DNA from: Candidatus Methylomirabilota bacterium
Lineage (GTDB): Bacteria > Methylomirabilota > Methylomirabilia > Methylomirabilales > Methylomirabilaceae
Reading direction: 5' to 3'
DNA length: 64,000 nt
NCBI GenBank assembly: GCA_003104975.1
Contig: PQAM01000014.1
Coordinates: 1 to 64,000 of the forward strand
The notes beneath the pieces are model-generated. The model was not told the DNA's origin, searched no databases, and saw only the letters and a list, made by a program, of their open reading frames with translations. Shown here one piece after another: positions 54,888 through 56,923 of the stretch (positions are counted from its first letter, which is position 1; the number at the start of each line of letters is the position of its first letter). A program made the position numbers and the translations under genes.

Positions 54888-54930
54888 AAAAACGCGAGAA
54901 CCCATCCCCGGTTCGCTCTGCGACGTTTTT
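54888..54930. terminator. candidate bidirectional terminator between converging genes
   Basis: AAAAACG (54888-54894) pairs with CGTTTTT (54924-54930), and inside GCG-AACC (with an AG bulge) pairs with GGTTCGC. An A-tract on one side and a T-tract on the other let it act on both strands, between meaB (+) and the minus-strand gene that ends at 54949. Confidence 0.6.
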
Positions 54931-54948: not shown

Positions 54949-55848
54949 TTAGAGCAATTCCAGTTTTGCACCATCCCAATTGAGCGTTGCCTCTGTTACA
55001 TGAACCCCTCTATTGTTTTTGTGGTCAAGAGCCACTGGAATATAGACTTGATATTGCTTCCTGTCGCGAACCTTCTTTCTCAATTCTGAAAGGTTCTTCT
55101 CGATGTCCTTCGAAAATGTCCGGATACTGTACCCATGCATACCACCTATAATGAACATAGAGAAGTTATTATCAAAAGGATTCGTTATTTTTGTGATCAG
55201 GAGAACTTCCTCTTTTAAGAATCCATTTTCGTCTTTTTTGAAGCACTTTGGATTTGATGACGAACGGTTGTCGACAATTGCATATAATGGGCGCTCAACA
55301 ATGCCTCCTTCGCATCTCTTTGCTTTTTCTATCGTACCGCCATAGGAACCATATTCGACATCTCCACAGTAGTAGCCCCATCTTAGGTTATTGCTACTAA
55401 AGATTGGAAAGTTGATGCCACTCTGAAGAGGTTCATATTGATATCCGGTAACAGCACCACCAAGCATATTGGATACCGGACCACCTAAAATGATTAATTC
55501 TTTCTCGATATCAAGTTTAAGTAACGTATCATCTGGTTGAACTTCTTCGAACGTTATTTGTCCACTTAAGGATGTTTCTACAGCCTTTGAAAAAGCCGCG
55601 CTCGCGGTCTTTAAATATTCGGACAACCCCTTTTTCCCTTCAGCTCTTGCGAGTTGATTTGTCCCTGCATAAATCTGTAAAGGTTTTGATATGTCGGCGA
55701 CGTGGCTTAATTCGGATTTTCTAAGTTCATCCTTAAACCACTCATATATCCCTGGAATACGAACCCCGATTGCGTTAAGTACTGTTGTTGCTAAAATCGT
55801 ACCTGTACTTTTTAAGATTTCCCGTCTATCAAATAGATTTATATTAAT
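54949..55848 (-). CDS. exported protein of unknown function with Tat-like signal; apparent AUU start
   Basis: Unrecognised, AT-rich gene. The frame is open upstream to a stop at 55872-55870. The first NTG codon is a TTG at 55626, which would give 225 residues, but the extra 74 codons are clearly protein-like: NLFDRREILKSTGTILATTV resembles a twin-arginine signal. ATT 55848 lies 8 bases after GGAG in an AAGAAGGAGAAGGGG Shine-Dalgarno stretch, giving 299 residues. The body contains LIILGGPVSNMLGG and FIIGGMHGYSIR. Either a real AUU start or an ATG-to-ATT mutation; the latter would make it a new pseudogene. Low GC suggests acquisition. Confidence 0.7.
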   Translation of the reverse strand: MNINLFDRREILKSTGTILATTVLNAIGVRIPGIYEWFKDELRKSELSHVADISKPLQIYAGTNQLARAEGKKGLSEYLKTASAAFSKAVETSLSGQITFEEVQPDDTLLKLDIEKELIILGGPVSNMLGGAVTGYQYEPLQSGINFPIFSSNNLRWGYYCGDVEYGSYGGTIEKAKRCEGGIVERPLYAIVDNRSSSNPKCFKKDENGFLKEEVLLITKITNPFDNNFSMFIIGGMHGYSIRTFSKDIEKNLSELRKKVRDRKQYQVYIPVALDHKNNRGVHVTEATLNWDGAKLELL

Positions 55849-55936
55849 TTCCCCTTCTCCTTCTTTCTGTTATTCTGTTGTTGCGGCTTCACTAAAGAGT
55901 AGACTGCTTGACCTACCTTCATCTAGTTTCATCATC

Positions 55937-55992
55937 GTTAGCGCGGATTCTATTGTGTCGGTCGGCGGTTCGCAAGGGATTTCTGAGTTTTG
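55937..55992 (+). repeat. 56-bp direct repeat, left copy
   Basis: GTTAGCG...TTCGCAAGGGATTTCTG...; 47 of 56 positions agree with 56868-56923. The two copies flank the integrase remnant and the RelE/ParE-type module. On the minus strand both stay open and read QN(S/P)EIPCEP, so they may be duplicated ends of an old gene. Confidence 0.75.
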
Positions 55993-56019: not shown

Positions 56020-56182
56020 TCAGCCCACTGGTCCCCCGGTCGAACGACCCTCTGAACCTGTTTCGAGGCCATCCGCCGGGCTACGCTCCCCGTCCGCTAC
56101 GGTTCAAGACGTGGGTATGAACCATGGTCGTGCTGACATGCCGGTGACCCAACAGCTCCTGAACCATCCGGATACCGTAGCC
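56020..56182 (-). pseudogene. tyrosine recombinase (integrase) C-terminal remnant, frameshifted
   Basis: The minus-strand frame from 56182 reads [19 protein letters not shown] then [13 protein letters not shown], the catalytic C-terminal block (HxxR region and active-site Tyr neighbourhood) of XerD/IntI-like recombinases. In typical members this is ...MIYTHVLNRG; the usual Tyr is His here (MVHTHV). A TAG at 56081 interrupts it, and a shifted frame continues RSPADGL to 56020. No N-terminal part is present. Confidence 0.75.
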
Positions 56183-56233
56183 GTGAAGGTTTCCTTGACA
56201 CTGTTCCGAAGTGTTCCCTCACCCGTACCCTGG

Positions 56234-56533
56234 TTAGGGTACCGTGACTCTTCCCTTCCAGAGGCTCGGCTCGCGACTGCAGTGCATGACAGCTACAATA
56301 AGGATGAACTCCGGTTCGATGACATACAGGATTCCATAAGGAAAGACGTGCGTGAGGCAGCGTCGGACATCCTCGTCAAGGACTCGCCAACGTTCCGGAG
56401 ATTCAAGAATACGGCGGATGGCGTCCTCAACGGCTTCGACGAATCTCGTGGCAAGCGACGGGTCGCGTTCGGCGTAGTGGAGAGTTGCTTTCCGGTATTC
56501 CTCAAGTGCTTCGGGGTGAAACTCCCATCTCAT
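56234..56533 (-). CDS. RelE/ParE-family toxin
   Basis: A 99-residue toxin with the family pattern FHPEALEEYRKATLHYAERD, ERWRVLDEDVRRCLTHVFPYGILYV (in parts) and the C-terminal VAVMHCSREPSLWKGR. The ATG overlaps the antitoxin TGA by 4 bases. Whether it targets gyrase (ParE) or mRNA (RelE) cannot be told from sequence alone. Confidence 0.92.
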   Translation of the reverse strand: MRWEFHPEALEEYRKATLHYAERDPSLATRFVEAVEDAIRRILESPERWRVLDEDVRRCLTHVFPYGILYVIEPEFILIVAVMHCSREPSLWKGRVTVP

Positions 56534-56763
56534 CGGCGAACAGCGTCGCGTACCCTCTTGAGAGCTTCATCGCCAGGGATACCCTCGACGCGCCCGCTTC
56601 GTACTTCATCTCGCCTACGCTTTGCCTCCGCGACCCACAGCCGGTCGATCTGCCCGAGTTCCTCAGCATCCAAGCTCTCGACCAGAAGGTCCGCGAGCTG
56701 TGCCCGCGATTCGGTCGGTAGGCTCATGGCCTGTTTGGCCAGCTTTTTTATGGTTGTCGCCAT
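56530..56763 (-). CDS. addiction module antitoxin (TIGR02574-like)
   Basis: A 77-residue antitoxin with the family features KKLAKQAMSLPTESRAQLAD, LLVESLD and the C-terminal AEAKRRRDEVRSGRVEGIPG. The frame is open farther upstream, but ATG 56763, about ten bases behind GAGGT, gives the family start. It encodes the partner of the overlapping RelE/ParE toxin. Confidence 0.9.
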   Translation of the reverse strand: MATTIKKLAKQAMSLPTESRAQLADLLVESLDAEELGQIDRLWVAEAKRRRDEVRSGRVEGIPGDEALKRVRDAVRR

Positions 56764-56867
56764 ACTCAAAACATACCTCAATCGTATCGAGTCATCAAGC
56801 GGAAGCGCTGACTCCGATGGTTTTATTGAGTAGGTCCGTCGGCATATCTCCATCGGATTTTATTGTA

Positions 56868-56923
56868 GTTAGCGTGGATTTTATTGGGTCTATCAGCGGT
56901 TCGCAAGGGATTTCTGGGTTCTG
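56868..56923 (+). repeat. 56-bp direct repeat, right copy
   Basis: Second copy of the repeat at 55937, 931 bp away in the same orientation, with 84 percent identity by direct alignment. It lies upstream of the antitoxin and downstream of msrQ. Confidence 0.75.

Follow-up and report, generated by a model that had tools for sequence, protein, structure and literature searches.

An AT-rich, cassette-like orphan gene behind meaB in a Methylomirabilota genome with candidate AUU and AUA start codons and a Tat-like N-terminus

We describe an orphan gene on the minus strand of contig PQAM01000014.1 of a Candidatus Methylomirabilota bacterium, within a window of 64,000 nt (positions 1 to 64,000). The best explanation, to which we give a probability of about 0.5, is that it is a foreign, AT-rich, cassette-like gene that is transcribed from a promoter in a repeat, starts weakly at AUU or AUA, and has a Tat-type N-terminus. 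As a cassette-like unit, the gene would occupy a variable site of the chromosome behind meaB and be transcribed from a TTGCGA-N17-TAGAAT promoter in the upstream repeat copy. The AAGGAG/AAGGGG tract would recruit ribosomes, which would initiate at a low rate at AUU 55848 (or AUA 55842), as in infC, pcnB and cvfC1, and expression would be expected to be both low and IF3-sensitive. The product would start with (M)NINLFDRREILKSTG..., and its Tat-type N-terminus would send the protein to the membrane or anchor it there.

RESULTS

The open frame and its candidate start codons

On the minus strand, where all the features of this gene lie, a frame is open from an in-frame TAA (55870..55872), which is the upstream limit for a translation start in this frame, to the stop codon ending at 54949. 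Read from the TAA, the strand continues with CAG AAA, the purine-rich codons GAA GGA GAA GGG GAA, and then ATT AAT ATA AAT CTA TTT GAT, followed by AGA CGG GAA ATC TTA AAA and AGT ACA GGT. From the ATT the frame (54949..55848) has 299 codons and a stop. Its first NTG codon (ATG, GTG or TTG) is TTG 55626 (55624..55626), codon 75 from the ATT, so that 74 codons are free of NTG. An earlier note on this DNA had given the same frame, coordinates and spacing, and these were borne out when the TAA, the AAGGAG, the 8-nt spacing, the ATT, the 74 codons, the TTG and the stop were all re-read; as it had also said, NTG-limited gene calling of the standard kind begins at TTG 55626. No clear −1 or +1 slippery site was seen on inspection of the frame by eye. 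A terminator-like hairpin with a T-run lies 3′ of the gene (54895..54910), of a kind whose count is no higher than in shuffled sequences.

We observed two codons in good Shine–Dalgarno (SD) register near the expected N-terminus, where there is no NTG. The ATT (55846..55848) is preceded at 8 nt by AAGGAG (55857..55862), the strong SD of the earlier note, and the ATA two codons further 3′ (55840..55842) is preceded, also at 8 nt, by a second purine run, AAGGGG (55851..55856). The pairing energies are −8.1 kcal/mol for ATT, −7.7 for ATA and −4.6 for TTG 55626, and −8.1 kcal/mol is reached at only 3.3% of the positions within the gene. As each codon follows a purine tract at 8 nt and the two SD energies hardly differ, the start would be AUU or AUA, and we regard AUA 55842 as equally plausible an initiator as AUU 55848.

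Codons 1–74 as coding sequence

When the 222-nt segment upstream of TTG 55626 was shuffled, its 74 codons stayed open in 0.3% of the trials, and were both open and NTG-free in 0.015%. We also trained a positional base-composition model on codons 75–299 and applied it to this segment, which scored +2.7 bits in the gene frame, the alternative frames giving −9.5 and −7.1; among 5000 shuffles, 114 did as well. Taken by themselves, the first 37 codons give a weak coding signal (+0.2 versus −4.7 and −2.5). Composition (weak in the first half), the Tat motif and the distance from the repeat, both described below, all indicate that coding sequence reaches the AUH codon. Three tests, each of moderate strength, agree that the 222-nt segment is coding: the open frame compared with shuffles, the base-composition model and the Tat-like motif.

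The promoter-bearing repeat as a ruler for the gene start

Directly upstream lies a copy (55889..55989) of a ∼105-nt, integron-like repeat. From an alignment of 16 copies, we observed that its most conserved part, TTGC and TA[GA]AAT at 17-nt spacing, resembles a sigma-70 promoter, and that imperfect dyads come after this part. In the copy before the orphan gene, a −35-like TTGCGA (55970..55975) and a −10-like TAGAAT (55947..55952) are spaced by 17 nt, and this pair is predicted to act as a promoter. The repeat model matches 11 of the 15 Methylomirabilis-type genomes, often as several copies at gene-length spacing. At least 11 of 15 Methylomirabilis genomes have accessory genes with this repeat in front of them, often in arrays; further copies were seen at 56824–56920 of the window, on contig C14 of genome G000 (at 71412, 84933, 86300 and 87540) and at loci L047–L068 and L083–L125.

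Another 27 copies are followed by an ORF of at least 85 codons, and in 19 of these an NTG start, the only kind listed, lies at most 70 nt from the repeat end. The corresponding distances are 37 nt for the ATT, 43 nt for the ATA and 259 nt for the TTG. Since most other genes start within 70 nt, this ruler favours a start at 55848 or 55842. In the same NTG-only listing, comparable repeat-linked genes start at ATG, GTG or TTG; a non-NTG start is therefore an exception even among the repeat-linked genes.

Taken together, four fairly independent lines (the coding frame, the SD, the signal motif and the distance behind the repeat) support that translation should begin near 55848 and not at 55626. 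The earlier note's start from about 55848 is to this extent upheld, but it had overlooked the AUA at 55842.

A Tat-like N-terminus

Codons 1–74 encode a Tat-type N-terminus, NLFDRREILKSTGTILATT. From the ATT, it begins (M)NINLFDRREILKSTGTILATTVLNAIGV, which is of the twin-arginine type, and the Tat-like signal DRREILKSTGTILATTVLNAIGV covers residues 7–29 (55762..55830). The combination of RRx(phi)(phi) near the N-terminus with a following hydrophobic stretch occurs in ∼0.1% of shuffled N-termini. TatC, and hence the translocase, is encoded in the genome, and the neighbouring MsrP carries an NRRSFLIG signal. As in Tat signal peptides of the SRRxFLK type, the orphan has DRREILKSTG, with the arginines at 8 and 9 from the ATT, and then a moderately hydrophobic stretch. 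Unlike them, it has isoleucine in place of phenylalanine and a charged stretch after the signal, and no clear AxA cleavage site was found in the predicted N-terminus. The TAT signal profile gave no match with this short query, for which the HMMER filters drop weak matches. The product is probably exported, but the 'Tat-exported' label in the earlier note is a motif call, and the Tat-like N-terminus may instead be a membrane anchor.

Homologue and structure searches

No homologue of the orphan was found in Pfam, NCBIfam, PADLOC, PHROGs, the PDB, plasmids, phages, viral contigs or GTDB contigs, where the contig scans require near-exact peptide matches, so that distant relatives would escape, nor in ∼400 whole genomes, the majority of them belonging to two phyla. 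The GTDB contigs were scanned twice, once with a hand-made degenerate alignment in which the extra rows are invented variants that steer the pattern search. We rejected a weak match in G000:C12 (E 0.0125) as chance, as it contains an internal stop; a PADLOC match to PtuA (E 0.01) and matches to Pfam TMP_C were likewise judged to be chance. AlphaFold predictions from the single sequence, for the whole protein and for its C-terminal part, were unusable (pLDDT 32). From the signal alone, our guess is that the ∼200-residue C-terminal domain could be that of a small envelope-associated accessory protein.

Foreign composition and likeness to integron cassettes

The gene forms a 1-kb island of 39–41% GC in surroundings of 55–65% GC. 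Directly upstream, beside the repeat copy, is a fragment of an integron-integrase C-terminus (56087..56185, minus strand; TIGR02249 positions 275–307). Behind meaB, other species hold different genes, some after the same repeat, such as genes of 282 codons in G004 and 306 codons in G006, so that the orphan resembles one exchangeable unit among many. Its best reading is as a horizontally acquired, AT-rich, cassette-like gene.

As with the gene cassettes of integrons (sedentary chromosomal or integrase-less arrays), the genes here are single, foreign in composition and close to clustered ∼105-nt repeats, the repeat sites occur at gene-length spacing in arrays, and 3′-end fragments of integron integrases adjoin some of the Methylomirabilis repeats. 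An integron integrase is present in the genus, intact and above the cut-off in G013 and as two frame pieces in G000. Unlike cassette sites, however, the Methylomirabilis repeat bears a promoter-like sequence in every copy and sits downstream of the integrase 3′ ends, and no covarying attC stem was found in it. The repeat gave no consensus fold and no covariation for a single-strand attC hairpin, for which reason the attC hairpin reading was dropped and the gene is termed cassette-like rather than filed as an integron cassette. Rfam gave no match at the gathering score.

Several observations were made around these elements. The intact integron integrase (L081:2080–3159, on G013:C37), which scores 469 bits against TIGR02249, directly follows imuB-like and dnaE2-like genes, placed as if in an SOS mutasome operon. 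Downstream of the 3′ end of this integrase are GAGATAGGCCGCC repeats that resemble a portion of the 105-nt element, an order opposite to the customary intI/attI layout. Short C-terminal pieces of integron integrases (profile positions ∼260–315), e.g. at L031, L033, L034 and L035 and in the window at 56087–56185, are scattered by the dozen across the Methylomirabilis genomes, and some immediately precede the promoter-bearing repeat. At 56234–56778 of the window, a pair of a ParE-type toxin and an addiction-module antitoxin (PF05016, PF09720) stands behind another repeat copy and is apparently a neighbouring cassette-like unit. The meaB of the single-contig relative G006 (L071:84–1018) was found in two tblastn frames, residues 1–229 and 230–312, possibly owing to a frameshift or a sequencing error.

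AUH starts in infC and in known cases

In all 14 of the Methylomirabilis infC genes read, a conserved ATC stands where IF3 should begin, 8 nt behind AAGGAGG or a close variant. At these loci (L126–L139) the likely start is thus ATC and not ATG, GTG or TTG, and automated annotation probably misplaces it. AUH starts therefore probably exist and work in the Methylomirabilis lineage, and presumably IF3 discrimination operates there. With this precedent in the genus, use of AUU or AUA is plausible for the orphan, and low expression is predicted.

infC (IF3; AUU, AUC or AUA) is a housekeeping gene that is autoregulated and whose odd start is conserved, and in E. coli the odd start of pcnB has been experimentally established. 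Like infC, the orphan has a non-NTG start behind a strong SD, but the conserved odd start and the autoregulation belong to infC, whereas the orphan is a single-genome gene with no apparent feedback logic. In S. aureus, cvfC1 starts at AUU with a strong SD at ∼10% of the efficiency of AUG, and in poor medium AUU and AUA sites there reached ∼10% of what AUG gave (PMC13009471). pcnB of E. coli and cvfC1 and ccpN of S. aureus, with AUU or AUA, resemble the orphan in having an inefficient start with an SD and low expected expression (PMC13009471); cvfC1 and ccpN, unlike the orphan, which is known from one genome, are conserved across species and experimentally tested. The best reading is that the orphan joins the small known class of AUU/AUA-started genes (infC, pcnB, cvfC1).

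DISCUSSION

Two readings of the start, between which the earlier note did not choose, compete: a rare weak start or a mutated one. The latter, which is the main rival of a weak AUU/AUA start, says that there was once an ATG at 55848 or 55842 that has since mutated, leaving the gene silent or weakly expressed, or that the base was wrongly assembled or sequenced in a normal gene that has been misread. Both ATT and ATA are one base from ATG, the change from ATG to ATA is a common transition, and one changed base or base-call error would look identical to what we see. The neighbouring repeat-linked genes have NTG starts, acquired genes decay often, and integrase fragments lie in the area. However, neither a stop nor a frameshift interrupts the remainder of the 300-codon frame despite the 40% GC of the DNA, and the SD tract is intact as well. 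We regard a lost or misread ATG as possible, if rather unlikely.

Initiation at TTG 55626, which would make the upstream 222 nt a long leader and leave the Tat-like peptide to chance, is improbable. TTG is a legal start codon, is the choice of the standard NTG-limited gene caller, and has an SD of its own, though a weak one (AAGGG, 9 nt upstream, −4.6 kcal/mol). Against it, the upstream segment is open, in the coding frame, and encodes a signal-like N-terminus, and the start would leave a gap of ∼260 nt behind the repeat versus at most 70 nt in most others.

A wider reading is just as doubtful: an integron-like system in Methylomirabilis with a promoter in every cassette site, where an AUU/AUA start disciplined by IF3 would keep an exported foreign protein low, possibly coupled to a leader ORF. 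This leader, of 27 codons in another frame (55839..55922, minus strand), has its AUG within the repeat and extends as far as the AUU/AUA region, its stop (55841–55839) overlapping the ATA at 55842. That it feeds ribosomes to the orphan by coupling or frameshift, in the way that ORF-11 of attI1 feeds them to class 1 cassettes without an RBS (PMC8876359), is speculative and the least probable of the alternatives, since the leader AUG is not conserved in the other repeat copies and the leader has no clear coding bias, and with the good SD of the orphan itself coupling is not needed.

A low-rate start at AUU or AUA in an acquired gene is hence the explanation we prefer. Standard gene callers miss or shorten genes with such starts, of which few are documented, and the promoter-bearing repeat can serve as a practical ruler when gene starts are to be placed in the Methylomirabilis genomes. 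If the explanation is true, weak starts occur in acquired genes too, where low expression may ease their acceptance.
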